64,000 bases of DNA from Naasia sp. (GTDB taxonomy: Bacteria > Actinomycetota > Actinomycetes > Actinomycetales > Microbacteriaceae), in contig NZ_JAODMK010000024.1 of assembly GCF_025465545.1 (NCBI RefSeq), positions 1 to 64,000 of the forward strand, written 5' to 3'. The notes under the pieces were generated by a model that saw only the letters and a list, made by a program, of their open reading frames with translations, did not search any database and was not told where the DNA came from. The position numbers and the translations under genes are program-made. This document shows, in pieces, positions 22,428-37,210 of the stretch. Every line of letters starts with the position of its first letter. Within the stretch, counting starts at the first letter, position 1.

Positions 22428-23072
22428 TCAGCTGGAAGACGGATCGGTGCTGGTGACGCGGCGGATCAGTTCGATCGAGCTGCGGAGGATGGGATGGGGA
22501 TTCCCGGTGAAGCCGCTGGTCGACCACCGGCGCATGACGTAGTGCATCACGCCGGTGGTGAGTGACACGACCATGCGTGCTTCCTCCTCAAGGGAAGCCT
22601 CATCACGACCACGCCGCGCCTCGGCGTGGAGTCGCCGCGACACGATGCGCACAAACTGGTCCTCGAGCTCGGCCATGCGCCCTGACTCCTTGTTGAAGAG
22701 TTCAGGCGTTCTCTGGATCAGCGCCCTCCGTGAGCGGAACATCTCCGGGTCGGGCTGGTGTTCGGTGAATGACGTGGTGATCAGTCCGACGAAGTCGCCG
22801 AGCACGCTCGATCCGGCCATGTCGACGAAGCCGTCGATCTCGTCTTCGCTCGGCATCGGCGGTGTCAGGCCGAGGACCGCGCCTTCTTTGGAGCCGAAGT
22901 AGTTGAAGAAGGTGCGCTGCGACACCATGCTCGCGTCGCAGATCATGTCGACCGTCACACCGTCGTAGCCGTGTTCCGTTGCCAGGTCGAGTGCGGTGCG
23001 CTCGATCGCTGCGATGAGCGCAGCCCGCTTGCGCTCGCGCAGTCCCTCGGGAGTTTGCGTCACGTCACTCAT
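22428..23072 (-). CDS. TetR-family transcriptional regulator
   Basis: A 214-aa repressor. The N-terminal helix-turn-helix is RTALDLATEHGYDGVTVDMI with CDASMVSQRTFFNYFGSKEG, the standard TetR DNA-binding unit (residues 25-70). The C-terminal ligand domain is helical and family-specific. The gene is last in an operon: its ATG at 23072 overlaps the end of the ABC permease gene by eight bases. It probably represses its own operon and hence a small-molecule exporter; palindromes at 25121-25148 upstream of the ATPase gene are candidate operators. The effector is unknown. Confidence 0.88.
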   Translation of the reverse strand: MSDVTQTPEGLRERKRAALIAAIERTALDLATEHGYDGVTVDMICDASMVSQRTFFNYFGSKEGAVLGLTPPMPSEDEIDGFVDMAGSSVLGDFVGLITTSFTEHQPDPEMFRSRRALIQRTPELFNKESGRMAELEDQFVRIVSRRLHAEARRGRDEASLEEEARMVVSLTTGVMHYVMRRWSTSGFTGNPHPILRSSIELIRRVTSTDPSSS

Positions 23073-24369
23073 AGCGCAGCGCATCGATCGGGTTCTGGCG
23101 GGCGGCCCGACGTGCGGGGAGCGTTCCTGCAAGGAAGGCGATGAGCATGACCACGCCGATGATGAGCGCGACAGGTCCCGGCGCGAACTGCATGATCTGC
23201 AGACCTTCGAGGTCTGCGAGGAGTGTGCTCGCGAGAGCGCCGCTGATGAGAGAGCCGACGCCGATCGCGACCAGTGCGCCGATCGCGCTGCCGAGGAAGC
23301 CGATGAAGACGGCCTCGGCGCTGAACAGCGCGTAGATCTTGCCGCCGCTCATCCCCATCGCCTTCATCAGGCCGATCTCACGGGTGCGCTCCTGCACACT
23401 CATGAGGAGGGTGTTGATGATGCCGAAGCCGGCCGCGATGAGGGCGATCACGGCGAAGGCATTCAGCACTCCCACGATTCCACTGATCACCGTCTCGATC
23501 GTCCCGATCTGGTCCGACACCGTCTGGCCCCGATACCCGTCCGCGGCGAGATCCGCCTTGATTGCGTCGATCTGCTCCTGGCTGGCGTTCGAGTCGATGT
23601 GGGCGGTCGCGGCGAAGTACGTACGGCCGGGGCCGGCGGGCTTGCCGGTGTCCTGGACCGCCACGAGCGCGTCCGTCAGACGCTGGCCCAGACCCGCGCC
23701 GCTGCCGAACAGCGACTCGTTCTGCACTCCGACGACGGTCGCCTCGACCTCGTGCATCTTGGCCTGGTAGTCGGGAATGCCTATCGTCACGGTCTCCCCG
23801 ACCGCGGACTCGGCATCGCCGAAGCCCAGGTTCTCCAGGTAGGAGGTCGGCAGCAGAATCTGGTTCGTGTCGGCATCGCTGCTCAGTTGTACGCCCGCTG
23901 CGAGGTCGGGCTTGGTGACCGCCGATGTCGCGTTCACGCTCAACTCGTACTTGCCGTTGCCGCCGTATTCGATGTAGCTGGGCGAGACGGAGACGACAGG
24001 ATTCACGTCGAGGATGCCCGCGGTCCCCGCGATCGTGTCCACGTCCTTGTCGGTGAGCATGGCGAACGAGAGGCCCGCTCCACCGCCGGGGAACCCGCCG
24101 CCCGACGTGGCAGCGTTGGGGTCATATTCGGCTGGACCGTTGTCCGCCGCTGCCCCCTGATCCTCGGGCGCCTTGCTGATCTGAAGCACGTCGCTCGCGC
24201 CGATGGAGGCGATCTGCGTGTCGATGTAGCTGGAGATCCCGGTGCCGATGGCGCTCGTGATCGTCAGGGTGAAGGCGCCGATGAAGATGGCGACCACGGT
24301 GAGCGTGGTGCGCAGCTTGCTGCGGAAGCTGTTGGCGACGGCCGTGCGGAGAACATCGACGAAATTCAT
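23065..24369 (-). CDS. ABC transporter permease (MacB/FtsX type)
   Basis: A 434-aa permease: one N-terminal helix (LTVVAIFIGAFTLTITSAIG), an extracytoplasmic domain of about 230 residues (MacB periplasmic core type, with a Gly-rich loop SGGGFPGGGAGLSF), then three C-terminal helices (VLNAFAVIALIAAGFGIINT, the stretch around AEAVFIGFLGSAIGALVAIG, and VALIIGVVMLIAFLAGTLPA). It ends in ARRAARQNPIDALRYE, the typical FtsX tail. Its ATG overlaps the ATPase stop by four bases (ATGA). With the ATPase it should form an export or mechanotransmission complex. Confidence 0.9.
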   Translation of the reverse strand: MNFVDVLRTAVANSFRSKLRTTLTVVAIFIGAFTLTITSAIGTGISSYIDTQIASIGASDVLQISKAPEDQGAAADNGPAEYDPNAATSGGGFPGGGAGLSFAMLTDKDVDTIAGTAGILDVNPVVSVSPSYIEYGGNGKYELSVNATSAVTKPDLAAGVQLSSDADTNQILLPTSYLENLGFGDAESAVGETVTIGIPDYQAKMHEVEATVVGVQNESLFGSGAGLGQRLTDALVAVQDTGKPAGPGRTYFAATAHIDSNASQEQIDAIKADLAADGYRGQTVSDQIGTIETVISGIVGVLNAFAVIALIAAGFGIINTLLMSVQERTREIGLMKAMGMSGGKIYALFSAEAVFIGFLGSAIGALVAIGVGSLISGALASTLLADLEGLQIMQFAPGPVALIIGVVMLIAFLAGTLPARRAARQNPIDALRYE

Positions 24370-25094
24370 GATGCGGAGCCCGTCGTGATCGTCGGACGGT
24401 GCTCCTCGAGTCCGTCGCGGAGGAATATCTGACGGTCGCAGCGCGCCGCCAGTTCGACATCGTGGGTGACGATGACGAGCGTGATCCCTCGCTTGTTCAG
24501 GTCGAAGAGGATGTCCTCGACCAGGCCCCCGGTCACGGTGTCGAGGTTTCCGGTCGGCTCGTCGGCGAAGATCACCTTGGGGCTGCCCACGAGCGCGCGG
24601 GCGATGACCACGCGCTGCTTCTGTCCTCCCGAGAGGTTGACAGCCTTGCTCTTGGCCTTGTCGGCGAGTTCCAGCTGAGCCAGTGCGGCCATTCCGCGCT
24701 CTCTGCGCTCCCTCGGGGGAACCCCTGCGATCTTCAGCGGCAGCACGACGTTGTCGAGCACCGATGCGTTGGGGGTGAGGAAGAACTGTTGGAAGACGAA
24801 ACCGAAATCCTCGTTCCGCAGGCGGTTGATCTCCTTGGGCTTCAGGTCAGCGGCGTTCGAGCCCTCGACAAGAAGCACTCCCTCATCCGGACTGTCCAGC
24901 AGCGCGAGCAGGTGCATGAGCGTGGACTTGCCGGATCCGCTCTTGCCGACGATGGCAACCGACTCGCCCGCGTGGACCGTCAGCGACACGCCCTTCAGGG
25001 CGTCGAAGCGAGCAGCGCCCCTCCCGTAGGACTTTCGGATGTCCTGTGCCTGCAGCATCGGTGTGCTCACTCTGGTCCTCGCCGTCTCGGGCAT
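24366..25094 (-). CDS. ABC transporter ATP-binding protein (LolD/MacB type)
   Basis: A 242-aa ATPase with Walker A GKSGSGKST (about residue 50), Q-loop FGFVFQQFFLTPNASV, signature NLSGGQKQRVVIARALVG, Walker B KVIFADEPTGNLD and the switch histidine in VIVTHDVEL. The ADEPTGNLD form is typical of the MacB/LolD class that pairs with FtsX-like permeases. The ATG at 25094 is the first in frame; a GTG at 25067 would remove nine residues and cannot be excluded. First gene of a three-gene operon with the permease and the TetR regulator. Confidence 0.92.
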   Translation of the reverse strand: MPETARTRVSTPMLQAQDIRKSYGRGAARFDALKGVSLTVHAGESVAIVGKSGSGKSTLMHLLALLDSPDEGVLLVEGSNAADLKPKEINRLRNEDFGFVFQQFFLTPNASVLDNVVLPLKIAGVPPRERRERGMAALAQLELADKAKSKAVNLSGGQKQRVVIARALVGSPKVIFADEPTGNLDTVTGGLVEDILFDLNKRGITLVIVTHDVELAARCDRQIFLRDGLEEHRPTITTGSAS

Positions 25095-25154: not shown

Positions 25155-25286
25155 TCAGTTTCTGCACCACGGTCGCTCCGCGTCCGTGACCGTGATGGGC
25201 TTGAGGTGGGCGGGCACGCCGAACGCGTCGACGATCCGCTGACGGCCCGCCGGCCCATGGTCCATCAACGAGTTCTCGATGGCCAC
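25155..25286 (-). CDS. 43-aa ORF coupled to the kinase gene
   Basis: The kinase stop TAG overlaps a GTG (TAGTG), opening a 43-codon frame that starts VAIENSLMDHGPAGRQRIVD and continues AFGVPAHLKPITVTDAERPW. The same TAGTG arrangement joins the preceding dehydrogenase and kinase genes. The peptide has a normal amino-acid composition for this genome and no membrane or signal segment. I do not recognise the family. It may be a small partner protein or the remnant of a longer last operon gene. Confidence 0.45.
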   Translation of the reverse strand: MAIENSLMDHGPAGRQRIVDAFGVPAHLKPITVTDAERPWCRN

Positions 25287-26614
25287 TAAGCGCCGAGCGC
25301 GACCGGACTGCCGCCGGGATTCCCGGACATCGCGCCGACCGCGTCCGGGACGTTCGCGAACCACCCCGTGGCGACACCGGCCAACATGGCGGCCCCTCGC
25401 GTTTCGGCGTCGGCCTCATGCCGTACCCGCGCAGGGATGCCGAAACGGTCCTCGATCCCCGCGACGATCCCCTTCACTCGTGCTGCGCCGCCCGTCACCG
25501 TCAGAGCTGACCACGGCGCAGGCGAGACGTGCTGCAGGAGCTCCGCTTTCTCAACCAGGTCCGTCATTGCGGTATCCACTATTGCGAGCGCCTGCACATC
25601 GCGCTCGCTACCGGCCGGGAGCCCTGCCGCGCGACTTCTGAGCCTGTCGTCGAGGTGGGAGAAATCCGGCGTCGCAGTCCAGACGCTCGCCGCGTCCCTG
25701 ACCCGGGTTCCGAAGCCCCACGCGACTGCCATGACGAGGTTGTCCGAGGCTCCCGGGAGCGCACATGACAGCGTCCCCACCGGCGTCTGCCATTCGGGAG
25801 ACGCCGTCAGTGCTCTCGCGGTCGTCCCCAGAATGAGAACCAGTTCGCCTTGCACCGGGCCTCCGACACCGAACGCCGCGGCGACCGAATCCATCGCCCC
25901 CACGGTGACCGGGATGCCACCGGGCAACCCGAGCTCGCCGGCGGGGCCCGCCCGAAGCGTCCCCGTGATCTCGGAGCCGTCGACGAGTCTCGGCAACCAG
26001 CTCGTCGGAATGTGGAATCGGTCAGCGACCTGGTCGTCCCAGTCGCGGTGCTCTCTGTCGAAGAGAAGGGTGGTCGAGGCGCGGGAGCTGTCCACGGCTG
26101 CCACCCCGGTCATCCGCAGACACACCCAGCCACTCGGAAAGAGGAGACCGTGAAGTCGGCGCCAGCGGTCGGGTTCGTGTCTGGACAGCCACAGGAGTGT
26201 GGGCAGCCAGTGCGGTCCGGCCTGCGGGCGCGCGTACAGGCGGCCCGGCTCGGGGTCACCGGCCATGCTGCGCTCGACGTCCTCCGCCTCCTGCACAGCC
26301 CGGCGGTCCAGCTGCATGATGGCCGGACCGAGCGCTGCGCCGTCTCGGTCGACGAGAACCAGGGCGTTCGCTGAGCTGAGCCCCACCGCCGCGACACGGT
26401 CGGGCTGCACCCCTCGCATCGCCTCCCTGGTCGCCGCCACCGTAGCCGACCACCAGCGTTCCGGGTCCTGCTCGACGAAGGATTCCTGGGGTCGAATCAG
26501 CTCATAGCCGCCATAACCGGCGCCGACCGCTTGGCCTCCCTGGGTGAAGAGGGTGGCTTTGCACCCGCTGGTGCCGATATCGATTCCCAGCAGAAGCCGT
26601 TCCCCGGGCACCAC
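25286..26614 (-). CDS. FGGY-family carbohydrate kinase (xylulokinase-like)
   Basis: A 442-aa sugar kinase expected to phosphorylate a ketose or polyol with ATP. The N-terminal nucleotide loop LLLGIDIGTSGCKATLFTQG and the substrate-side ESFVEQDPERWW are typical; the catalytic Asp is in VTVGAMDSVAAAFG (about residue 230), and LILGTTARAL and VTGGAARVKGIVAGI form the C-terminal ATP site. Somewhat shorter than usual for xylulokinases. GTG at 26614 overlaps the upstream stop by one base; a GTG at 26611 is also possible. Part of the LacI-linked operon, so its substrate is probably the ketose made by the co-encoded dehydrogenases. Confidence 0.88.
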   Translation of the reverse strand: MVPGERLLLGIDIGTSGCKATLFTQGGQAVGAGYGGYELIRPQESFVEQDPERWWSATVAATREAMRGVQPDRVAAVGLSSANALVLVDRDGAALGPAIMQLDRRAVQEAEDVERSMAGDPEPGRLYARPQAGPHWLPTLLWLSRHEPDRWRRLHGLLFPSGWVCLRMTGVAAVDSSRASTTLLFDREHRDWDDQVADRFHIPTSWLPRLVDGSEITGTLRAGPAGELGLPGGIPVTVGAMDSVAAAFGVGGPVQGELVLILGTTARALTASPEWQTPVGTLSCALPGASDNLVMAVAWGFGTRVRDAASVWTATPDFSHLDDRLRSRAAGLPAGSERDVQALAIVDTAMTDLVEKAELLQHVSPAPWSALTVTGGAARVKGIVAGIEDRFGIPARVRHEADAETRGAAMLAGVATGWFANVPDAVGAMSGNPGGSPVALGA

Positions 26615-27630
26615 TAGTCCCCGGTCGAGATGAGCACCTTGAGACCAGCCGCGTCGGCCTTCATATCGAAACCCCTCTTCCATTCGTCCATCGGCAGCAC
26701 GTCGGAGACGACTGCTTCCAGGTCCAAACGGCCCTCGTCGACGTAGCGGAGCACCTCAGCCTGGAGCTGCGGGGTGGATCCAGAGGAGCCGACGAGGTCG
26801 ATCTCGCCGTAGTGGATCCTGTTCGGGTCCACGAGAACCGGCGAGTTCTCCGGCATCCCGGCGAAGACGACGCACTTGCCGCCCTTCCTCAACACGGCGA
26901 TGGCGTCGCTCACCAGGGAGGGGATACCGGCATCGATGAAGACGACGTCGACCTGCCCGGTGACGGTGTCCGCGAGCTCGGAGGGATGGATGGCCACGTC
27001 GGCTCCGAACCTGAGGCCTTGATCACGACGACCCTCGTCCGGCTCGGACAGGATCACCTGATTGGCACCGAACAGCTGGCTGTGCTGGATGTGGGCGACG
27101 CCGAGCGGGCCTCCTCCCATCACGAGGACATTCCGGCCGCTCAACTCGCCTGCGCGACGCACGCCCTGCAGCGCGGCCGCTGCCGGCTCCGACGCTGCGG
27201 CCGCGATGTCGGACACTCCCGAAGGGACCGGGACGACGTTGCCGCCTTGTACGGCAGCTGCAGGAACCGTGACGTACTCGGCGAACCCGCCATCGATCTC
27301 GTAGCCCAGGGTTCGGCGATTCACGCAGATGTTCTCGCGCCCCGCCTGACAGGCGTAACAGTGTCCACACGCGATGATCGGGTAGACGACGACTCGCTCC
27401 CCCAGGTCGTACCCCGTCACGCCCGGCCCGATCTCGGAGATGGTTCCGAAGAACTCGTGTCCGATGATCCGAGGGCCGTCGACTCTCTTGATCCCGCGGA
27501 AGATCCTGAGATCCGTCCCGCAGATGCCGGCCAGCGAGATGTGGATGCGGATCTCCCCGGGAAGCAGCGGGTGCGTCGCCACTTGGGTCAGCTCCATGTT
27601 GCCGGGGCCGTGGAATACCAGTGCTCTCAT
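26614..27630 (-). CDS. Zinc-dependent MDR dehydrogenase (sorbitol/threonine DH-like)
   Basis: A 338-aa medium-chain dehydrogenase that would oxidise a secondary alcohol with NAD(P). Catalytic zinc ligands appear in GICGTDLRIF and IIGHEFFGTI; the structural zinc site has four cysteines in CGHCYACQAGRENIC; the Rossmann loop is VLVMGGGPLGVAHIQ (about residue 160). ATG at 27630 overlaps the aldolase stop by four bases. This is one of two distinct zinc MDRs in the operon; they differ in sequence and are not recent duplicates. The substrate is inferred only from the context of a sugar operon. Confidence 0.88.
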   Translation of the reverse strand: MRALVFHGPGNMELTQVATHPLLPGEIRIHISLAGICGTDLRIFRGIKRVDGPRIIGHEFFGTISEIGPGVTGYDLGERVVVYPIIACGHCYACQAGRENICVNRRTLGYEIDGGFAEYVTVPAAAVQGGNVVPVPSGVSDIAAAASEPAAAALQGVRRAGELSGRNVLVMGGGPLGVAHIQHSQLFGANQVILSEPDEGRRDQGLRFGADVAIHPSELADTVTGQVDVVFIDAGIPSLVSDAIAVLRKGGKCVVFAGMPENSPVLVDPNRIHYGEIDLVGSSGSTPQLQAEVLRYVDEGRLDLEAVVSDVLPMDEWKRGFDMKADAAGLKVLISTGD

Positions 27631-28286
27631 GCCGATACCTCTATCTCTTTCTGCTTGGGCCATGCGTCCGCTTCATAGAGCGGCTTGGCACGTCCTTCTG
27701 TGATCACATAGACGGTGAGCGCGTCGAGCAGCTCGTCTGCGGTGTTGAAAGCCGACTCGATGGTGTCCCCGACCGTGATGAAGCCGTGATTCTGAAGGAG
27801 GATCGCCTTCGTGTCCCCAGTGGCGACCTCCGATACCGCTGCCGCCAGTTCTGCCGACCCCGACGAGAAGTAGGGGATGAGCGGCAGCCGGCCGACACGC
27901 GCCAGGTAGCCGGCCGTGTACACGGGAAAAGCGTTGACCGGGTGCGGCGAGAGGAGCGTGGACGCGGCCACCGCGTACGGGGAATGTCCGTGGATGACGC
28001 AGTTCACCTCTGGGCGGGCGCGGTAGATGCCCAGGTGGAACGGCACCTCCTTGCTCGGCCGCCCGCTGCCCGTCGCGTCCCCACGGGAATCGACCTCGAC
28101 CAGCTCTTCCGGAGAGAGGTCGGCCAGGGACCGGCCCGTGGGCGTGATGAGGACGGTGCTCGAGCGGCGCACACTCGCGTTCCCGCCCGTGGAGCTCACC
28201 AGACCGCGCTGATAGAGCTGTGCGCCGAGCCGCGCAAGGTCCTCCGCGTCACTCACGACGTTCCCCTTTCCTGTCAGCGGGCTCAT
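27627..28286 (-). CDS. Class II aldolase/adducin-family protein (FucA-like)
   Basis: A 219-aa zinc aldolase or decarboxylase of the FucA/AraD fold. Zinc histidines are in NCVIHGHSPYA and LLQNHGFITVGD; the catalytic Glu lies in SKEVPFHLGIY as in L-fuculose-phosphate aldolase; the phosphate-binding region starts STGGNASVR and LITPTGRSL. These residues indicate an active enzyme cleaving a ketose phosphate or decarboxylating a related acid. ATG at 28286 overlaps the preceding stop (ATGA), but a GTG at 28256 has a better ribosome site (AGGAAAGGGG), so the true start may be there. Confidence 0.85.
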   Translation of the reverse strand: MSPLTGKGNVVSDAEDLARLGAQLYQRGLVSSTGGNASVRRSSTVLITPTGRSLADLSPEELVEVDSRGDATGSGRPSKEVPFHLGIYRARPEVNCVIHGHSPYAVAASTLLSPHPVNAFPVYTAGYLARVGRLPLIPYFSSGSAELAAAVSEVATGDTKAILLQNHGFITVGDTIESAFNTADELLDALTVYVITEGRAKPLYEADAWPKQKEIEVSA

Positions 28287-29323
28287 GACCGGTCCTCCGG
28301 AATCACGAGGACCTTGCCCGAGTCGCCGATCCCGGCGATCGCGGAGGGCAGCGCATCGAGGGGGATCCGGTCGTCGATGAAGCCGGCGAGCTCCAGGCGG
28401 CCAGTGCTCACCAGCTCGCCGAGGGTCTCCCAGGTCTCCCAGAGCCGTCTTCCGAACACGCCGCGCAGCGTGAGGTAGCGAACGTTGATGAGCTTCGAGA
28501 TATCGACCGAGACGGCTCCGGGGTGCCCCACCGTCACGACATCCCCCGCGACCCTCACGGACTCCAGCACCGGACCGAGCGCCCGGGGAGAACCGGAAGC
28601 CTCGAACGCGACGTCGACACCTTGGCGACGCGGGGTGAGTCGTGCCACTTCGGTCGGAACGTCCACCGCGGCCGGGTCGAGCGTGATCGCGCCCCGCCTC
28701 TCCGCCAGGAGTCGACGACCAGGACTGAGCTCGGTGGCGATGACGCGGGAAGCGCCGGCGATCCGCGCCAGTTCGATGAGGAACAGTCCGATGGGCCCGC
28801 ATCCGCTCACAAGCACGGACTGCCCCAGGAGAGACGGGGCGCGCTGAAGCGCGTGCACGGCGACCCCCGCCGGCTCGAAGAGCGCCGCCTCCTCCAGGGA
28901 CACCCCGTCCGGGATGGGGTAGCAGGCGGAAGCGGGGACGGCGACCCTCTGCGCGAAGGCCCCGTCACGACTGAGCCCGAGGATGGTCTGCCGGGAGCAG
29001 AGGTGGGCGTTCCCGGTCCTGCATTCCATGCAGCTTCCGCAGACCAGGTGCGACTCCAGTGCGACGCGATCTCCGACCGAGATCGACTGGACCGCTGCCC
29101 CCACCTCGATCACCACTCCGGCCGTCTCGTGGCCCGGAATCCGGGGCAACGTCGGAACGAACGCCTGGCCGGCCTGATCCCAGTCGTAGACATGCCGATC
29201 CACGCCGCAGAGTGAGGTGGCCGCGACCTTGACCAGAACATCGGCGGGACCGACCTGAGGGTCGGGGGCATCGAGCAAGAAGTCGAAGCCGGGCCCCGGG
29301 CGGGACTTGACGATGGCGTGCAT
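28283..29323 (-). CDS. Zinc-dependent MDR dehydrogenase
   Basis: A 346-aa MDR enzyme. Catalytic zinc residues are in SLCGVDRHVYDWD and RIPGHETAGVV, the structural zinc cysteines in CGSCMECRTGNAHLC, and the NAD loop in VLVSGCGPIGLFLIELA. The spacing CGVDRHVYDWD resembles L-threonine 3-dehydrogenase, which has CGTDxHIYxWD, but the operon suggests a polyol or sugar acid substrate. ATG at 29323; its stop overlaps the aldolase start. It follows the SDR gene by 30 bases. Confidence 0.88.
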   Translation of the reverse strand: MHAIVKSRPGPGFDFLLDAPDPQVGPADVLVKVAATSLCGVDRHVYDWDQAGQAFVPTLPRIPGHETAGVVIEVGAAVQSISVGDRVALESHLVCGSCMECRTGNAHLCSRQTILGLSRDGAFAQRVAVPASACYPIPDGVSLEEAALFEPAGVAVHALQRAPSLLGQSVLVSGCGPIGLFLIELARIAGASRVIATELSPGRRLLAERRGAITLDPAAVDVPTEVARLTPRRQGVDVAFEASGSPRALGPVLESVRVAGDVVTVGHPGAVSVDISKLINVRYLTLRGVFGRRLWETWETLGELVSTGRLELAGFIDDRIPLDALPSAIAGIGDSGKVLVIPEDRS

Positions 29324-29353
29324 GGGTACCTTTCGTCGCTCGGACGAGCCGAG

Positions 29354-30157
29354 TCAGTATTCGGGATTGGGCAGGGTCAGCTTGGCTGTGAGCCCGGCGT
29401 CGACGGGAAGCGTCACCGCGGTGATCCATCTCGCGCTGTCGCTGGCGAGGAACAGCACGGCATCCGCGACGTCCCAGGCCGTTCCCTCGGTGGCGAGCAT
29501 CCCCGCGTCGCGGCGAGCAGCACGCATCTCGGCGGAGGACCGCTCGACCATGGGGCTGTACACCATGCCCGGCGCCACGCAGTTGACGCGGATGCCCTGC
29601 TTTCCGTGGTGCAGGGCCATGGACTTCGTCATCATGATCACGGCGGCCTTCGACGCCGGGTAGAGGAGGCTGGGCAGTCCCGCGAACATGCCGGCCACCG
29701 AGGCGATGTTCACGATCGCGCCTCCCCCGCCACGCTCCATGTGCGGGACGGCGAACCTCGCCATCAGCATCATCGAGGTCGTGTTGGCCCGCAGCCCGTC
29801 CTCCCAGCCGTTCACATCCACGTGCACGGCGTCGCCCAGAGCTCCTTCGGTCCCCACGACATTGACGAGCACGTCGAGGCCACCGAACCGCTCCACCGTC
29901 GTCTCGACGGCCCGACGGCAGTCGGACTCCGACGAGACGTCCCCGACCACCGACACCGCCGCCGCCCCGAGTGCCTCTACTTCCTGGTGGGTCTGTTCGA
30001 GCGGCGCCGTGCTGCGGTTCATCAGACCCAATTTGGCGCCGGCAGCCGCGAATCGGAGCGCAGTGGCCTTCCCGATACCGGTTCCCTCACCGCGGGAGCC
30101 TGCGCCCGTCACGAGAACCACCTTGTCGCGCATGCCGGCGAGTGCTGGAACGCTCAT
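29354..30157 (-). CDS. SDR-family oxidoreductase
   Basis: A 267-aa classical short-chain dehydrogenase. The cofactor loop is VLVTGAGSRGEGTGIGKATA, slightly longer than the usual TGxxxGIG; the catalytic Ser is in IVNIASVAG and Tyr/Lys in YPASKAAVIMMTKSMA (about residue 165); the C-terminal GITRWITAVTLPVDAG-like end (SARWITAVTLPVDAGL) is normal. ATG at 30157 overlaps the stop of the upstream gene by four bases. It probably oxidises a hydroxyl of the operon's substrate. Confidence 0.88.
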   Translation of the reverse strand: MSVPALAGMRDKVVLVTGAGSRGEGTGIGKATALRFAAAGAKLGLMNRSTAPLEQTHQEVEALGAAAVSVVGDVSSESDCRRAVETTVERFGGLDVLVNVVGTEGALGDAVHVDVNGWEDGLRANTTSMMLMARFAVPHMERGGGGAIVNIASVAGMFAGLPSLLYPASKAAVIMMTKSMALHHGKQGIRVNCVAPGMVYSPMVERSSAEMRAARRDAGMLATEGTAWDVADAVLFLASDSARWITAVTLPVDAGLTAKLTLPNPEY

Positions 30158-31062
30158 GGGCGAGCGATGTCCCGGTTGGCGAGGCGCTCGTACACCCGCG
30201 AAAGGGCCTGATTGCCGTTGCCCCCCTCGCCGTGCGCGACCGCCTCCAGGTACATGTTCAGCACGCCGGACGCTGCAGGAAGTGGCGCACCCGCGTCGGC
30301 TGCTGCATCGAGGGCGAGGCGGAGGTCCTTCACCTGCAGCACTATCCGGAATCCCGCGGAATCGTCTCCGGCGAGCATCTGGGGTCCGAGGTTGTCGAGC
30401 ACCCAGCTGGCGGTCGCGCCGCCCATCATCGCCTCGCGCAATCGCCCCAGATCGACGCCCAGCGCCCGTCCCAGGGTGAATGCTTCGCAGACGGCTTGAA
30501 TGTTGATGGCCACCGCAACCTGATTGCAGACCTTCGTGGCCTGCCCGGTGCCGACCGGTCCCATGTGCGTGATCCGGGAGGACATCGGCTGCAGGATGGC
30601 GCGAGCACGCTCGACACTGTCGGCGTCGCCGCCCGCCATGACCGAGAGGGTGCCGGCGACGGCGCCTTTCACTCCGCCGCTGACGGGCGCGTCGACGAAG
30701 CGGATTTGACGCTCCTGGAGAGCCGAGTGGATGGCGAGGGTGCCCTGAGGCGAGATGCTGCTCATATCGACCATCAAGGTGCCCGGGGCCGATCTGGCGA
30801 GCACCCCGTCAGCACCGTGGACGACCGATTCCACGTGCGGCGTGTTCGGCAGCATCGTGACCACGACGTCGGACTGCTCCAAGAGCGCACCGAGGTCGTC
30901 GGCGACCGGTATGCCGCGTTCTCCGGCTGCGTTTCGGGCCGCCGGGCTGAGGTCGTACCCCGTCACCGCTGTGCCCGAGCGGTGCAGGTTGGTGACCATG
31001 GGCAGGCCCATGACCCCGAGGCCGATGAACGCGACGACCGGCGTCGTCGCCCCAGCCTCCAT
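30154..31062 (-). CDS. Beta-hydroxyacid dehydrogenase (HIBADH/GarR/LtnD family)
   Basis: A 302-aa NAD(P)-dependent dehydrogenase of the 3-hydroxyisobutyrate/tartronate-semialdehyde reductase family. Dinucleotide loop VAFIGLGVMGLPMVTNL; substrate loop FVDAPVSGGVKGAVAGTL; catalytic Lys in GTGQATKVCNQVAVAIN, where the usual NN is NQ. Family members act on 3-hydroxyacids, including L-threonate (LtnD), which would fit a sugar-acid branch. ATG at 31062 overlaps the RpiB stop by one base (TGATG). Confidence 0.87.
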   Translation of the reverse strand: MEAGATTPVVAFIGLGVMGLPMVTNLHRSGTAVTGYDLSPAARNAAGERGIPVADDLGALLEQSDVVVTMLPNTPHVESVVHGADGVLARSAPGTLMVDMSSISPQGTLAIHSALQERQIRFVDAPVSGGVKGAVAGTLSVMAGGDADSVERARAILQPMSSRITHMGPVGTGQATKVCNQVAVAINIQAVCEAFTLGRALGVDLGRLREAMMGGATASWVLDNLGPQMLAGDDSAGFRIVLQVKDLRLALDAAADAGAPLPAASGVLNMYLEAVAHGEGGNGNQALSRVYERLANRDIARP

Positions 31063-31562
31063 CACCGCAGTCCCCCCGCCTCGATCGGCTGCTGGGCACG
31101 CCCGAGCAGCTCGAGGGCGCCCGACAACTCCAGTTGATGAAGCTTCTCCACCCGCCGCTGGGTGTCCTCGTCCGCGTCGAAGGTCGCCGCCAGGAAGGCG
31201 GTGATGGTCTCCGTGGCGATGGCCGGGCCGATGAGCCACGCGCCGAGCACGATGCAATTGGCGTCGTCATGCTCCACGCTCTGATGAGCGGAGTACACGT
31301 CGTGCCCCAGGGCCGCTCGGATGCCGGGGATCTTGTTGGCGGCCATCACCGCCCCCACGCCGGTTCCGCAGATGAGGACCGCCCGCTCTGCGATCCCTCG
31401 CCTGACCACTTCGCACGTTGCGGCGGTGATGTCCGGGAAGTCGACCGGACTGTCGTCCCGCGTGCCGTGATCGAGCACCTCGTGCCCGAGCGAATGCAGA
31501 ACGTTGACCACGTGCTCTTTGAGCGCGAACCCGGCGTGATCGTTTCCCAGCGAAATCCTCAT
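31062..31562 (-). CDS. RpiB/LacAB-family sugar-phosphate isomerase
   Basis: A 166-aa isomerase that interconverts aldose and ketose phosphates. The active-site motifs are ISLGNDHAGFALKEHV (Asp, His) and ERAVLICGTGVGAVMAANK (catalytic Cys), with SAHQSVEHDDANCIVLGAWL in the middle. Ribose-5-phosphate isomerase B is the best-known member, but close relatives isomerise erythrulose-4-phosphate, galactose-6-phosphate or allose-6-phosphate. In an operon with a FGGY kinase and an aldolase the substrate is likely a pathway-specific sugar phosphate. ATG at 31562; the ABC ATPase gene ends 34 bases upstream. Confidence 0.9.
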   Translation of the reverse strand: MRISLGNDHAGFALKEHVVNVLHSLGHEVLDHGTRDDSPVDFPDITAATCEVVRRGIAERAVLICGTGVGAVMAANKIPGIRAALGHDVYSAHQSVEHDDANCIVLGAWLIGPAIATETITAFLAATFDADEDTQRRVEKLHQLELSGALELLGRAQQPIEAGGLR

Positions 31563-31596
31563 CGGGTACCTCTTCCCATTGTCCTCATCGCGCCCG

Positions 31597-32373
31597 TCAC
31601 GCTCCCCGTCCTCGTGGGACGGCAGCGCCGGTGATCCAGGCGATGATCTCCTCGATGCTCACGTCGCCCGGAGCCAGGTCCGCCACGGTGGTGCCGCGGT
31701 AGAGGACGATGACGCGGTCGCAGAGCTCATGCACTTGAGGCAGGTTGTGGCTGACGAGCAAGACCGACGTCCCCTGCGAGCGGATCCGGGTGATCAACTC
31801 GCCGACCTGGTGCTGCTGCTCGACTCCGAGCGCGGCGGTCGGCTCGTCCATCAGCACCAGCTTGCTGCCGAAAGCGGCGGCTCGTGCGACCGCGACCGCC
31901 TGACGCTGGCCCCCGGACAGCTCGCCACACTGAGATGCGACCGACGGGATCCTGATCTTGATCTTGTCGAGCTCGGCGCGAGCCTGGTCCTCGGCCGCTC
32001 GGTGGTCGAGCACCCCGAGTCTTCCGAGCAGTCCCGGTCGAAGCCGCTCACGACCGAAGTAGAGATTCTCTGCGACCGACAGGTTGCTGGCCAGCGCCAG
32101 ATCCTGGTAGACGGTCTCTATCCCGGCCCGCTGGGCATCCCGTGGTCGGTGGAATTCGACGGGCTCGCCTTCGATGAGCAGGCGTCCTGTGGTGGGCTGG
32201 AGCGCACCGGCCAGCGTCTTCAACAGCGTCGACTTGCCGGCCCCGTTGTCCCCCACGAGGCCGACGACCTCGCCGTGACCGACGGAGAAGGTGGCATCGC
32301 GGAGCGCGTGGATGCTGCCGTAGTGCTTGGCGAGGCCCTCGGCGTGAAGCAGTGGCCGGATGTTGTCCGTCAT
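31597..32373 (-). CDS. Sugar ABC transporter ATPase, single domain (FrcA-like)
   Basis: A 258-aa CUT2-family ATPase with one nucleotide-binding domain: Walker A GDNGAGKST, signature ELSGGQRQAVAVARAAAF, Walker B LVLMDEPTAALG and switch VSHNLPQVHELCDR. RbsA/XylG-type ATPases are usually about 500 aa with two domains; the single-domain form resembles FrcA of the fructose system and would work as a homodimer. ATG at 32373 follows GAGGGA at about ten bases. The cyclase gene separates it from the permease gene. Confidence 0.9.
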   Translation of the reverse strand: MTDNIRPLLHAEGLAKHYGSIHALRDATFSVGHGEVVGLVGDNGAGKSTLLKTLAGALQPTTGRLLIEGEPVEFHRPRDAQRAGIETVYQDLALASNLSVAENLYFGRERLRPGLLGRLGVLDHRAAEDQARAELDKIKIRIPSVASQCGELSGGQRQAVAVARAAAFGSKLVLMDEPTAALGVEQQHQVGELITRIRSQGTSVLLVSHNLPQVHELCDRVIVLYRGTTVADLAPGDVSIEEIIAWITGAAVPRGRGA

Positions 32374-32392
32374 GAATGAATCCCTCGTTGAA

Positions 32393-33313
32393 TCAGACGA
32401 TGGCGATGGGGTCGACCATGGCCGCACTCGCGCCGCGGATCTTGACCGGAGCGACGATGAGCAGGAATTCGTAGCGGCGGTCCTCTGCCAGCTGCTCGAG
32501 GGCCAGCATCTCGATCATCGGCATTCCTCGTTCTCTCAGAAGCGCCGTGTGCACCGGATGGGGGTTGCCCGGCACGGCGCTCGGAAGCTGCTCGATCCCC
32601 TCTGTGTCGGCGCCGATCCCGGCTATGCCCTGGGCGATCAGCCACTCCGCGGCTTCGAGGGTGATCCCTGAGCCGCTGTGCTGTTCGATGAGGTCCCTGT
32701 GAGGCCACACCCTCCCATAACCCGTGCGAAGCAGCACCACGTCGCCGGCGCTCAGCGAGACCCCCTCCGAACGCAGGGTCTGCTCGAGATCTTCCCGGGT
32801 GATGCCGTAGCCCTTCGGCAGGACATCCTCGTTCCGGTACGCCGCAACGTCGATCAGCACTCCCCTGGACACCATGGGGGTCAGCTGGCTGCCGTCGCTC
32901 GCGAGCAGTCCGAAGTCCCCGAGGCCGGTGAGCTCATCCCCTCCGTACCAGCTGGCAGGGGTACCCACTGCGACGTGCCCTGCCGCGTCGATGTGCGCAC
33001 CGGTGTGCATCGACGCCGTGACGACGTCCGAGGTGAACGTGACATCGACCGTGTTCGCCTCGCCACTGGGCCAGACGGAACTCGGCTCCGACCGAAGCCC
33101 GTGCGGTGTCCGGTAGGGCAGGACCACGAGCTGCGGGTGCATGACGGGAAGCGGCATTCCCGGGAAGCGAACTCGGGCCAGGTCGTAGACGACCCCTTCC
33201 CGCACGAGGCGGAGTGCGGCGAGGATCCCTGCTGAGGACAGGGTCGGGACCACGGGGACCGCTCCCGGTTGAAGCGGATCGATCCTGCGAAGCGACGGAC
33301 TGGACGACGTCAT
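32393..33313 (-). CDS. Cyclase-family (kynurenine formamidase-like) hydrolase
   Basis: A 306-aa metal-dependent hydrolase of the cyclase family. The signature H-x-G-x-H-x-D-x-x-x-H is present in SMHTGAHIDAAGHVAVG (about residue 105), with other conserved blocks GVLIDVAAYRNEDVLP, LSAGDVVLLRTGYGRVW and SAVPGNPHPVHTALLRERG. Members open amides, lactones or cyclic intermediates. Here it sits between the permease and ATPase genes of a sugar transporter, so it may hydrolyse a lactone or ester of the imported compound rather than formylkynurenine. ATG at 33313 overlaps the permease stop by four bases. Confidence 0.85.
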   Translation of the reverse strand: MTSSSPSLRRIDPLQPGAVPVVPTLSSAGILAALRLVREGVVYDLARVRFPGMPLPVMHPQLVVLPYRTPHGLRSEPSSVWPSGEANTVDVTFTSDVVTASMHTGAHIDAAGHVAVGTPASWYGGDELTGLGDFGLLASDGSQLTPMVSRGVLIDVAAYRNEDVLPKGYGITREDLEQTLRSEGVSLSAGDVVLLRTGYGRVWPHRDLIEQHSGSGITLEAAEWLIAQGIAGIGADTEGIEQLPSAVPGNPHPVHTALLRERGMPMIEMLALEQLAEDRRYEFLLIVAPVKIRGASAAMVDPIAIV

Positions 33314-34497
33314 CCCCGGACCCTTCGCTTCTTCAGAACCGTGTCGAGTGCGACTGCACCGACGAGGACCAGCCCCTGCACCACGAACTGCAGGTAGGTC
33401 GAGACTCCCGCCAGCTGCATGCCGTTCGCCAGGCTGCCGAGGAGGATCGCCCCCAGGAGTGTCCCGCGCACCGTTCCGATGCCGCCGAAGAGGCTGGTGC
33501 CTCCGATGATCACAGCGGTGATCGCGTTCAGTTCGAGGAACAGGGCAGGGTCCGGCGGTGCCCCGTTGAGGCGGGCGGCGAGCATGATCCCATCCAGGGA
33601 GTAGATGACTCCCATGCCGAGAAAGAGGAAGAACACATAGGCCTTCACGTTCACGCCCACGCGCCGCGCGGACTCCGGGTTGTCCCCGATCGCGTAGAGG
33701 CGACGCCCGTAGAAGGTGTGGCGTGCGATCAGGCCGAGGACGACGGCCAGCACGGCGACCACGACTGCCGGCATCGGTATGCCCTGGTAGGCGATCGCGG
33801 CCCACGCCAGCAGTGCGAGCAGCAGCAGGACCGGCACCGAGTCCGACACGAAGCGGCCGCCGTCATCCATCCCCGCTCGCCTTCGCGCGTTCCTGCTCTG
33901 CACGAGGACGCTCCAGATGATTCCTGCCGCCACCAGCACGCACAGGATCACCGAGGGAACGCGGCCAATGGTCATCAGCGTGAAAGCGTGCAGCGCGTCG
34001 TCCACCGGGCCCAGCGTCTGACCCTCGGTGATCACATAGGTGATTCCGCGGAAGGTGAGCATGCCTCCAAGGGTGACGATGAACGCCGGCACGCCCACTA
34101 CCGCTACCCAGAACCCCTGCCAGGCGCCGAGGACCAGTCCCACCATGACGACCACCGCGATCATGGCGGGGATGCCGAGGTCCAGCTGCGACTGCAGCCC
34201 CGCGGCGACCGTCGCGGTGAGGCCGACCGCTGATCCCACCGACAGGTCGATGTGACCGGCGACCATGACGAGCATCATGCCGAGCGCCGCGATGGCGAGG
34301 ATGACGCTCTGCACCAGCAGCAGCGAGATGTTCCTTCCGGTCAGGAACAGTCCACCGGTCAGTATCGCGAAAGCGAGCCATACCGCGGCGACGCCGAAGA
34401 TGAGGCCGTAGACATTCCAGTTGAACGGAGTTCTCGCGCCGTCATCATGCTTCTGCGTGGCCGACGGCTTCGCAGCTGCAACAGAGGGGCGACTCAT
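33310..34497 (-). CDS. Sugar ABC transporter permease (XylH-like)
   Basis: A 395-aa CUT2 permease with about ten helices. Family signature segments are VMVAGHIDLSVGSAVGLTAT, FIVTLGGMLTFRGITYVITE, YAIGDNPESARRVGVNVKAY and IGGTSLFGGIGTVRGTLLGA. The long middle loop (residues 200-230) and total size fit XylH (xylose) better than RbsC (ribose, about 320 aa). It starts 56 bases after the binding-protein gene; no clear hairpin was seen in that gap. Confidence 0.92.
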   Translation of the reverse strand: MSRPSVAAAKPSATQKHDDGARTPFNWNVYGLIFGVAAVWLAFAILTGGLFLTGRNISLLLVQSVILAIAALGMMLVMVAGHIDLSVGSAVGLTATVAAGLQSQLDLGIPAMIAVVVMVGLVLGAWQGFWVAVVGVPAFIVTLGGMLTFRGITYVITEGQTLGPVDDALHAFTLMTIGRVPSVILCVLVAAGIIWSVLVQSRNARRRAGMDDGGRFVSDSVPVLLLLALLAWAAIAYQGIPMPAVVVAVLAVVLGLIARHTFYGRRLYAIGDNPESARRVGVNVKAYVFFLFLGMGVIYSLDGIMLAARLNGAPPDPALFLELNAITAVIIGGTSLFGGIGTVRGTLLGAILLGSLANGMQLAGVSTYLQFVVQGLVLVGAVALDTVLKKRRVRG

Positions 34498-34553
34498 GGC
34501 TGGTCCTTTCCGGGATTATCGCGAGGGGTGAGTGCTGAAGGGCGTCTCGGAAC

Positions 34554-35648
34554 TCAGGACGCCGGGCACTCGGTCGCGGCCTGGTCGCCGTAGACCTCCT
34601 CGGCCGTGTAGTAGCCGTACTGGTTGATCCAGTCGCACACCGTGTCCTGGGTGACGTTGATGGTCTCCATCACCACAGTGGGCTTCTCGCCGTTCGTGTA
34701 CTTGACGCTCTGGACGTTCGGCACGTCGAGGTCCGTACCGGTTGCGGCGGCGTACGCGGCGTCTGCGGCGTAGGTGCCCATGAGGCTGTAATCAGTCCAG
34801 ATGCTGAGGGTCTGGGTGCCCTGCACGATCGCCTGCACATTGAGCAGGTCGGCGTCGACTCCCGAGACGAACACGCCCTTGAGCTTCTGCGCCTGCAGCG
34901 CCGTGATCGCGCCGGTGGCCATACCGTCGTTGTTGGAGAGGATCGCGCTCACGTCGTCCTTGGCAGCCACGAGGGCTTCCTCGACCTGCTGTTGCGCCGT
35001 CTGAGGGCTCCACCCGGCGTTGTACTGCTGAGAGACGATCGTGATGTCACCGGCGTCGACGGCTGGCTGGAGCGCGTCAAGGTATCCGGCTGTGGTGTCC
35101 TGAGCGACGCTGCTCGCGGGGTCACCCCCGATGATGATGTAGTTCCCGGTCGGGTGCGCCTCGAGCGCCGACTCCGCCGTCTGCTTGCCGTAGTCGCGAG
35201 CGCTGCGGGTGATCGCGTAGTCGAACTCCGCATCCGGCGCGATGAAGTTGTAGTCGATCACCGGGATTCCGGCGTCGCTGGCGATGGCGAACGAGGACGC
35301 CGCGGTGTCCGCGTTGACGGGGGCGATGATCAGCGCATCGACTCCCTGCGTGACCATGTTCTCGATCGCGCTCCTCTGCTTCTGATCGTCGCTCTCCGCG
35401 GAGACGACGATGGACTTCGCCCCGAGCTTCTTCAGCTGGTCCTCGATGCCCTGCTGGTCGAACTTCCATCGGGAGACGAGGGTCTGCGACAGCACCACGC
35501 CGACGGTGACGTCGTCGGGGGCGGCCGATCCCCCACCCGAGGCTCCCCCTTCATTGAGGGAGGAGCACCCGCTCAGGAGTGCTGTCGCGCCCACCAGCAG
35601 CACGCTGGCGCCGGCGAGGAAACTGCGGTGGTGAAGGTGGTCTGCCAT
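34554..35648 (-). CDS. Sugar ABC transporter substrate-binding lipoprotein
   Basis: A 364-aa periplasmic-binding-protein-type lipoprotein. The signal region ends in the lipobox LLSGCSS (Cys about residue 28), followed by a Gly/Ser linker. The mature part has the ribose/xylose-binding fold: VGVVLSQTLVSRWKFDQQGI, VDALIIAPVNADTAA, IPVIDYNFIAPD and AILSNNDGMATGAITALQ. The asparagine-aspartate pair NNDGMA is typical of type I sugar-binding proteins. First gene of the eleven-gene operon. ATG at 35648 is chosen because it directly precedes the signal peptide; GGAG lies five bases upstream. Confidence 0.92.
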   Translation of the reverse strand: MADHLHHRSFLAGASVLLVGATALLSGCSSLNEGGASGGGSAAPDDVTVGVVLSQTLVSRWKFDQQGIEDQLKKLGAKSIVVSAESDDQKQRSAIENMVTQGVDALIIAPVNADTAASSFAIASDAGIPVIDYNFIAPDAEFDYAITRSARDYGKQTAESALEAHPTGNYIIIGGDPASSVAQDTTAGYLDALQPAVDAGDITIVSQQYNAGWSPQTAQQQVEEALVAAKDDVSAILSNNDGMATGAITALQAQKLKGVFVSGVDADLLNVQAIVQGTQTLSIWTDYSLMGTYAADAAYAAATGTDLDVPNVQSVKYTNGEKPTVVMETINVTQDTVCDWINQYGYYTAEEVYGDQAATECPAS

Positions 35649-35710
35649 GGTGACTCCGTTGTCTGCTGTCGCACTGTGATCGAGGCGCATCTCGGCCTCT
35701 CAGCCGCATT

Positions 35711-35724
35711 TGGAATCGTTTCCA
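35711..35724. promoter_or_regulatory. LacI-family operator
   Basis: TGGAATCGTTTCCA is a 14-bp palindrome with TGGAA/TTCCA arms and a central CG, the classic LacI/GalR-family operator form. It lies between the divergent lacI-type gene and the sugar operon, about 15 bases downstream of the operon's predicted -10, so a bound repressor would block transcription at roughly +9 to +22. Confidence 0.8.
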
Positions 35725-35739
35725 CGGGCCGTCGGGATG

Positions 35740-35769
35740 AGCATGTGGCACGCGCTAGGAGGTTGTCAA
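35740..35769 (-). promoter_or_regulatory. Predicted promoter of the sugar operon
   Basis: On the minus strand TTGACA (35769-35764) and CATGCT (35745-35740) are separated by 18 bases. The -35 is a perfect sigma-A consensus; the -10 matches at several positions. The predicted start site is near 35733, giving an untranslated leader of about 85 bases that contains the operator. Confidence 0.55.
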
Positions 35770-35834
35770 GTCGGGCTCCAGTGCGGTGCCGCTAGCATCG
35801 GATCGACAGTCGGCTCACAGGCGGAGGTTCAACC

Positions 35835-36821
35835 ATGGTGACCCTCCATGACGTCGCGAAGTTCTCCGGGACGTCCGTCGGAACCGTCTCGCGCGTCCTC
35901 AATGGCAGCCCACACGTGAGCGAGGTCGCCCGTCTGCGCGTCCTCCGCGCGATCGACGAACTGAACTTCACGCCGAACCGGGCTGCCCAGTCGCTCCGCA
36001 CCTCTCGCACCACCCTGGCGGGCCTCATCGTGCCCGACATCACCAATTCGTTCTTCGGCGCTCTCGCGCGAGCGCTCGCGCGAGAGCTCTGGGCACACGA
36101 CTACGGCCTGATCCTCGCTGACACGGCCGAATCGCTCGAGAAGCAGACGGAGGCACTGGACGCCCTCGGCAAGCGCGGAGTGGATGGGCTTTTCCTCGTC
36201 CCCACGACCTCGACTCGCGACATCGCGAATCCACTCAACATCCCCCTGGTCACTCTCGACCGCACCTTGGCCGATCTTCCCGGCGTCACCAGTGACAACC
36301 GGCAGGGCACCTCGCTCGCCGTGTCCTACCTGCATGGCTGGGGACACCGCAGGATCGCCACGATCGTCGGGCCGACGACGTGCTCCACCGCCGCCGAGCG
36401 CCTGGAAGGATATGCCACCACCACGCGCGCGTTGGGCATCTATTCCCGCAGCTTGATCAGGGAAGGCCCGTTCAGCTACGCCTTCGGCAAACAGGCCATG
36501 GAGGAGCTCCTCGATGAGCCGACCCGCCCTACCGCAGTGATCGCGAGCAACGACTCTCAAGCGATCGGCGCCCTGCACGCCTGCGCCGGCCGGGGATTAC
36601 GCGTTCCGCAGGACATCTCGATCTGCGGATTCGACGGGAGCGAACTGGCCTCGCATCTCTCGCCTTCGCTGACCTCGGTGAAACAGCCGATCAGCACCAT
36701 GGCCACCCACGGGGCTCGTCTGATGCTCGAACTGATCGAGACCGGCACAGCCGGCTCCGGGGCGGTTCTCCTCACCGACCTCACGATCGGTGAGTCGTGC
36801 TCGGTCCCTCCGAGTCACTGA
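35835..36821 (+). CDS. LacI-family transcriptional regulator
   Basis: A 328-aa repressor. The N-terminal helix-turn-helix VTLHDVAKFSGTSVGTVSRV and hinge helix NRAAQSLRTSRTTLAGLIVP are complete; the C-terminal sugar-sensing domain has the periplasmic-binding fold (NSFFGALARALARELWAHDY, TAVIASNDSQAIGALHACAG, ISICGFDGSELASHLSPSLT). GGAGG lies ten bases before the ATG. Divergent from the transport/catabolic operon, which it very probably represses through the palindrome at 35711. The ligand is probably the imported sugar or a phosphorylated intermediate. Confidence 0.93.
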   Translation: MVTLHDVAKFSGTSVGTVSRVLNGSPHVSEVARLRVLRAIDELNFTPNRAAQSLRTSRTTLAGLIVPDITNSFFGALARALARELWAHDYGLILADTAESLEKQTEALDALGKRGVDGLFLVPTTSTRDIANPLNIPLVTLDRTLADLPGVTSDNRQGTSLAVSYLHGWGHRRIATIVGPTTCSTAAERLEGYATTTRALGIYSRSLIREGPFSYAFGKQAMEELLDEPTRPTAVIASNDSQAIGALHACAGRGLRVPQDISICGFDGSELASHLSPSLTSVKQPISTMATHGARLMLELIETGTAGSGAVLLTDLTIGESCSVPPSH

Positions 36822-37133: not shown

Positions 37134-37210
37134 TGGTTGCGGGGACAGGATTTGAACCTGCGACCTCTGGGTTATGAGCCCAGCGAGCTACCGAACTGCT
37201 CCACCCCGCG
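37134..37210 (-). tRNA. Initiator tRNA-fMet (CAT)
   Basis: The 77-nt gene begins CGCGGGGTGGAGCAG and ends in an encoded CCA. The anticodon loop is CTCATAA. Two initiator hallmarks are visible: base 1 (C) and base 72 (A) do not pair, and the anticodon stem has three consecutive G-C pairs (GGG/CCC). The T-arm GGTTCAAATCC is normal. Confidence 0.97.

Follow-up and report, generated by a model that had tools for sequence, protein, structure and literature searches.

An Arginine-Poor RpiB-Family Isomerase in a LacI-Linked Operon of Naasia sp. with a Possible Role in Acid-Sugar Catabolism

The stretch of DNA analyzed here (the window) comprises positions 1 to 64,000 of contig NZ_JAODMK010000024.1 from Naasia sp. 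(assembly GCF_025465545.1). Open reading frame (ORF) calls over these 64 kb place an operon of eleven genes on the minus strand (35648–25286), with a divergent gene for a LacI-family regulator opposite. In order, the genes encode a CUT2 substrate-binding protein, a permease, a cyclase-family hydrolase, an ABC ATPase, an RpiB-family isomerase, a HIBADH-family dehydrogenase, an SDR dehydrogenase, a zinc MDR dehydrogenase (MDR1), a class II aldolase, a second zinc MDR dehydrogenase (MDR2), and an FGGY-family kinase. The operon probably takes up a sugar and degrades it by way of sugar acids, and appears to be a variant of acid-sugar catabolism that matches no known pathway in the tests made. We read it tentatively, and as somewhat short of probable, as a LacI-regulated acid-sugar operon with threonate-type logic, in which the RpiB-family protein would replace OtnI and the FGGY kinase would replace a DUF1537 kinase. 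Four observations count in its support: the pairing of RpiB with the HIBADH-family dehydrogenase, the loss of RpiB arginines in one group, the acid-type transporters beside most loci of that group, and an aldolase whose nearest model is OtnC. The arginine-poor RpiB group is a more general finding than the operon itself.

RpiB Proteins without Two Phosphate-Site Arginines

The RpiB-family isomerase (31062–31562, minus strand; PF02502) departs from the known phosphate site. According to two papers, the phosphate contacts of RpiB are R113, R137, R141, and a histidine (PMC4783025, based in part on homology modeling and docking; PMC3755991). These columns were matched through the T. cruzi chain 3k7o, whose residue numbers agree once an offset of 20 is applied. 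At positions 113, 137, and 141 the window protein reads W, D, and R, R141 alone being kept; the catalytic cysteine (C65) and the ring-opening histidine (H98) are present. R113 and R137 are also missing from 13 plasmid relatives, twelve of them at 53%–58% identity and one (L156) at 48.6%. Among ten RpiB rows outside this group, five carry all three arginines, the DerI-type rows L041, L158, and L163 have only R113, L162 is without R113 only, and LacB (L164) is without all three. In a survey of the phylum, 181 of 396 genomes matched the window RpiB (its own included). Upon alignment of the best 29 non-self loci, both arginines were missing only in the two nearest (56%–59% identity); R137 is present in all of the remaining 27, and R113 as well in 24 of them. 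A second RpiB in the same genome carries all three arginines.

In a tree of 24 rows, from which the phylum loci L191 and L192 were left out, the arginine-poor proteins fall on one side of one branch (support 97/98), with the DerI-type rows placed apart from the window RpiB. Pfam and NCBIfam scans, which covered the ten proteins other than the permease and ATPase, gave the window RpiB 121.6 bits on the rpiB equivalog TIGR01120 (cut-off 138.65, missed) and 112.5 bits on the DerI model NF051858 against a cut-off of 240, a model on which the RpiB from an OiaX cluster in Rhizobium (L158) scores 255.7. Two residues that grip the phosphate are lost, and the group may therefore handle unphosphorylated sugar acids. 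The substrate of DhuI is unphosphorylated. DhuI is described as an RpiB-family isomerase of an acid sugar, a uronate (PMC12838403); the likeness lies in the family and in the acid-sugar substrate. As a tentative proposal, short of probable, the arginine-poor "RpiB" proteins could be keto-acid isomerases of unphosphorylated substrates, the one here replacing OtnI in a new acid-sugar pathway with an FGGY kinase, which would begin with the import of a sugar or of a lactone that a PF04199 lactonase opens. If so, the label RpiB would be wrong for a group found here mainly on alphaproteobacterial plasmids, and the group would point to undescribed sugar-acid catabolism. Sugar acids are supplied by plant cell walls and by the breakdown of ascorbate. 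The arginine signature would offer a direct way of picking out such proteins.

RpiB and a HIBADH-Family Dehydrogenase Form a Conserved Pair

The neighboring gene (30154–31062, minus strand) encodes a β-hydroxyacid dehydrogenase of the HIBADH family, in a subfamily linked to RpiB. It scores 275 bits on TIGR01505 (cut-off 340.8) and 191.8 on the LtnD equivalog (cut-off 350, missed), and the lysine that we take to be catalytic is intact in the alignment. Plasmids gave 22 matching records at 1e-50, the best five of which (L052–L056; 47.5%–52.8% identity) were fetched. In all five of these alphaproteobacterial cassettes, the HIBADH gene is accompanied by an rpiB whose product is 54%–58% identical to that of the window. 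The motifs SW[VM]L and HGEGxNGNQAL are common to the RpiB-linked dehydrogenases; tartronate semialdehyde reductase (1vpd), when aligned, has neither. The two enzymes form a conserved pair, small enough for assay on a panel of acids. Although both members are close relatives of the window proteins, the rest of each cassette differs: a FadR regulator and an amino-acid-type ABC transporter accompany the pair, a ribokinase/PfkB gene is the kinase in four of the five, and nothing there matches the window aldolase or cyclase.

Ten arginine-poor loci were fetched through RpiB itself (L150–L154, L156, L165, L166, L220, and L221), and TRAP transporter genes were found in seven. TRAP systems carry mostly carboxylates. 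Elsewhere in this set, L152 has a sugar ABC transporter and an RraA-like protein, and L156 has MFS and ribokinase genes; at L220, where no transporter was identified, the neighbors of RpiB are an aldo/keto reductase and two members of the enolase superfamily. L166 is a FadR-TRAP-RpiB cassette between unrelated genes, with RpiB as its sole enzyme. In L221 (G373:C6), which like L220 comes from the same phylum as the window, RpiB lies with GntR, TRAP, ADP-ribosylglycohydrolase-family, and PfkB genes. L221, L166, and L153 are small GntR/FadR-TRAP-RpiB cassettes that encode hardly any further enzymes or none at all.

Aldolase and Kinase

The class II aldolase (27627–28286, minus strand) keeps a glutamate and three histidines. 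Its best model is OtnC (NF043034), on which it scores 159.9 bits and misses the cut-off of 250; the next model gives 111.6, and fuculose-phosphate aldolase models give 104.8, 99.0, and 98.0. Elsewhere in the genome (L187, C20:77385–79309), a DUF1537 kinase, the only genomic match to that family, passes the 3-oxo-tetronate kinase cut-off (412.5 versus 350). The aldolase adjoining it, 41% identical to that of the operon, scores 196.5 on OtnC and likewise misses the cut-off of 250. Also in this separate acid-sugar locus are an FGGY kinase gene, a gene judged by eye to be DeoR-like, and others.

The last gene of the operon (25286–26614, minus strand), which most plausibly starts at the GTG at 26614, encodes a divergent and shortened FGGY-family kinase of 442 residues. 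The N-terminal domain (FGGY_N, PF00370) scores 169 bits, and the C-terminal domain (FGGY_C, PF02782) reaches 20 against a cut-off of 27. A GERxP stretch is present in all 25 relatives that were aligned out of 57 gathered (18 are distinct, since overlapping loci repeat; one reads GEK) and is missing from the operon kinase. A frameshift in the C-terminal domain was rejected as the cause, with no piece of GERxP in the other frames. The predicted model (pTM 0.85) retains the FGGY fold, with E. coli xylulokinase as the top fold match, and has pLDDT below 50 at residues 299–329; 30 of 38 listed relatives entered the structure alignment. D242, presumably the catalytic residue, is kept. Because the GERxP segment is lacking, the original prediction that all catalytic residues are intact is not fully right. 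It stands for the motifs of the cyclase, SDR, both MDRs, aldolase, and ATPase, for the cysteine and histidine of RpiB, and for the HIBADH lysine, and fails for the two RpiB arginines and the C-terminal domain of the kinase.

A Possible Pathway and Its Alternatives

We infer every reaction and substrate of the following scheme. An XylF-like CUT2 transporter would import a sugar or lactone the size of a pentose, with D-xylose an improbable candidate. The lactone would either be imported as such or arise through oxidation by an MDR or SDR dehydrogenase, and its ring would be opened by the cyclase-family hydrolase. The resulting aldonic acid would be oxidized by the HIBADH-family enzyme (or MDR1), and the RpiB-family enzyme would shift the carbonyl of the unphosphorylated keto-acid ahead of the kinase step. 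The FGGY-like kinase would then phosphorylate the keto-acid, and the class II aldolase would decarboxylate the 3-oxo-acid phosphate to dihydroxyacetone phosphate or a tetrulose phosphate.

In its logic the scheme follows the L-threonate pathway, the steps of which are LtnD, OtnI, OtnK, and OtnC (PMC12540250). Both systems bring together, within a single operon, a dehydrogenase of the HIBADH superfamily, an isomerase, a kinase, and a decarboxylase-like protein of the Aldolase_II family. The window operon, however, carries RpiB rather than OtnI and an FGGY kinase rather than a DUF1537 kinase, and adds a CUT2 sugar transporter, a cyclase-family hydrolase, an SDR, and two MDRs. The D-apiose/apionate OiaX cluster (L158) shares with it a CUT2-type transporter, an RpiB-family protein, and acid-sugar logic; that cluster has, in contrast, the RuBisCO-like OiaX and a DUF1537 kinase, and its RpiB scores above the cut-off for DerI and occupies another part of the tree. 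The D-apiose OiaX pathway was rejected, since none of the operon proteins scanned is RuBisCO-like, an OiaK, or of the PGDH_C type. A tetritol (erythritol/threitol) operon (L163), which holds a Dak kinase and a TIM-like protein, is alike in its RpiB-family protein and sugar kinase, whereas the window operon is without TIM-like or Dak genes and has an RpiB of another type; the DerI score and the tree disfavor a tetritol pathway here.

The original prediction that the gene set matches no textbook pathway is borne out, in that no equivalog cut-off for the tetritol or threonate pathways was reached, and its remark that threonate-like modules occur without the DUF1537 kinase holds for the ten scanned proteins. 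Its comparison with both tetritol and threonate routes shifts in weight: the erythritol type of RpiB (DerI/EryI) was not matched, and because the DerI score is missed, the phosphate site differs, and the tree position is separate, the likeness to tetritol routes is weaker and the acid-sugar reading stronger. That the operon is a known tetritol or threonate pathway in unusual annotation, as the shared gene families might suggest, is very improbable on these scores and because none of the operon proteins scanned is a Dak kinase, of the LerI type, or a DUF1537 protein.

Several observations weigh against the acid-sugar scheme. The transporter is of the sugar type rather than the acid type, the C-terminal domain of the kinase is abnormal, and both the HIBADH-family enzyme and the aldolase fall below every equivalog cut-off listed. 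The lactonase role proposed for the cyclase-family hydrolase is a guess, and an ortholog of the whole gene set was not found among the fetched loci. For RpiB, the arginine-poor group retains R141 and His9, the scores of the window protein exceed the subfamily cut-offs PRK05571 and TIGR00689, and both group members tested exceed the rpiB equivalog cut-off. DerI and LacAB act on phosphates, and the loss of arginines is for this reason a sign of an altered ligand site and not proof of an unphosphorylated ligand.

Isomerase, FGGY kinase, and class II aldolase make up a classical set, and the main rivals to the acid-sugar scheme are a route of this kind and one with a DerI-like end step. In the former, RpiB would isomerize an unphosphorylated aldose, the kinase would phosphorylate the ketose, and the aldolase would cleave it, as in fucose and rhamnose routes, with the dehydrogenases serving related polyols and the aldehyde product. 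The sugar-type CUT2 transporter fits this, and the PfkB/ribokinase genes at L052, L053, L055, L056, L156, and L221 also permit an isomerase before a kinase. We nevertheless consider it unlikely, though a serious competitor: the aldolase is closer to OtnC than to the fuculose-phosphate aldolases, the HIBADH-family enzyme and cyclase are left unexplained, and TRAP genes accompany most of the loci fetched through RpiB. A little less likely again is decarboxylation ahead of isomerization, in which a C5 3-oxo-acid 5-phosphate would yield D-erythrulose 4-phosphate and RpiB, acting as DerI, would convert this to erythrose 4-phosphate. An OtnC-like aldolase and an RpiB do share the operon, DerI-type rows are also without R137 and R141, and, to judge from annotation and neighboring genes, the DerI step in OiaX and tetritol clusters is carried out by a protein of the RpiB family. 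R113, however, is kept in the DerI-type rows and lost in the arginine-poor group, the DerI score is less than half its cut-off, the two types occupy separate parts of the tree, and at L166 RpiB is the only enzyme.

The divergent kinase allows a further explanation, in which the operon is composite or decaying: the kinase would be nonfunctional, the oxidoreductases would carry out a partial oxidation, and enzymes encoded elsewhere, such as the DUF1537 kinase at C20, would finish the pathway. The missing GERxP segment, the poorly predicted residues 299–329, and the 3-oxo-tetronate kinase elsewhere in the genome all agree with it. An intact kinase ORF that overlaps its neighbor, together with the retention of D242 and of the FGGY fold as a whole, leads us to regard decay as improbable.

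Search for Relatives of the Operon

A genome-neighborhood search, which the original prediction had proposed, found neither a locus with the whole gene set, among those fetched with the cyclase, kinase, aldolase, HIBADH, RpiB, binding protein, and MDRs as queries, nor a characterized pathway covering all genes. For the binding-protein and MDR matches, neighbors were viewed for one only (H61). In a comparison of the window proteins against 129 non-self loci, many of them just 3.5–4 kb long, the best two match five query families each: L092 the kinase (36% identity), SDR, both MDR queries on one gene, and the ATPase, and L048 the cyclase (42%), permease, ATPase, LacI, and SDR. An exact-pattern scan of contigs with six 8-residue patterns from one protein, which by our estimate misses relatives below ∼60% identity, returned 50 loci, all at most 38% identical. 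Among the titles and opening lines of abstracts listed for open-licence papers in PMC, none dealt with the gene set or the RpiB group, which does not prove absence from print.

Close relatives of individual genes are sparse in the samples, and the operon therefore appears to be accessory. The cyclase matched 40 of 299 genomes of the family at 1e-20 (best 41% identity) and 3 of 396 of the phylum at 1e-40 (best 44%), itself included in both; of five genomes of the same genus in the family sample, weaker homologs occur in two (37% and 32%), and the remaining three gave no match at 1e-20. The kinase matched 26 of the 396 at 1e-40 (itself included; identity at most 41%), and the HIBADH-family enzyme no other genome among them at 1e-65. 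Neither the kinase nor the aldolase had a plasmid match at 1e-30.

Layout, Transporter, and Regulator

The eleven-gene operon is real: all eleven same-strand ORFs and the divergent regulator were found as originally predicted, with the families as named for the ten proteins scanned. Neighboring genes overlap at six of the ten junctions (−4, −1, −4, −4, −4, and −1 nt); at the other four, the gaps are 19–56 nt. No ORF of the operon contains an in-frame stop, and GC3 is 0.80–0.89, compared with 0.81–0.94 in five flanking genes.

The binding lipoprotein (34554–35648, or possibly starting at 35690; minus strand) is XylF-like, with an altered pocket. It scores 230.5 bits on the xylF equivalog TIGR02634, below the cut-off of 389.6, and was also compared with the structures 4ywh and 3m9w; 102 of 302 residues aligned with XylF are identical. 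At the positions that we take to contact the sugar in XylF, R16, W169, N196, and D222 are kept, and D90N, R91F, N137V, and K242T are altered. The scores of the binding protein and kinase and these pocket changes disfavor a D-xylose operon. The permease (33310–34497, minus strand) was assigned from its ORF and from tblastn matches to permease genes of CUT2-type loci, and overlaps the next gene by 4 nt. The ATPase (31597–32373, minus strand; 258 residues) has a single domain with Walker A/B and LSGGQ motifs.

The cyclase-family metal hydrolase (32393–33313, minus strand; PF04199, 89.7 bits; HxGxHxDxxxH intact) is encoded within the transporter set, between permease and ATPase. Among 12 loci of its relatives (L040–L051), CUT2 genes directly adjoin the cyclase gene in three (L046, L048, and L050) and lie within 10 kb in L040 and L043; none were seen in the other seven. 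At L048 (G647:C142), a 43% identical relative lies in a LacI-CUT2 cluster with SDR, 3-hydroxyacyl-CoA-dehydrogenase-type, and histidinol-dehydrogenase-type proteins, a cluster that may serve another sugar or acid pathway.

The remaining dehydrogenases, all on the minus strand, are the SDR (29354–30157; PF13561, with TG...GxG and YxxxK), the TDH-like MDR1 (28283–29323; assigned by profile scan, residue check, and a plasmid relative), and MDR2 (26614–27630; PF08240/PF00107, with its zinc cysteines). The best plasmid relative of MDR1 (49% identity, Rhodococcus) adjoins a RuBisCO-like protein and a kinase nearest to OiaK (197 bits, cut-off 700), in a cluster that combines the RuBisCO-like protein with DUF1537.

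The LacI-family regulator (35835–36821, plus strand; PF00356/PF13377) is separated from the operon by a putative operator, TGGAATCGTTTCCA (35711–35724), a palindrome with perfect 5-nt arms and a central CG. It is the sole exact match to TGGAANCGNTTCCA, a pattern picked only after the sequence had been seen, in both window and genome; with two mismatches allowed there is still one site in the window, and shuffles give 0.92. A tRNA-Met gene (37134–37210) adjoins the lacI end of the operon; acquired DNA is often inserted at tRNA genes. The region at 23065–25094, which follows the operon downstream on its strand, encodes what by eye are an ABC ATPase and an FtsX-like permease, apparently a unit of its own.

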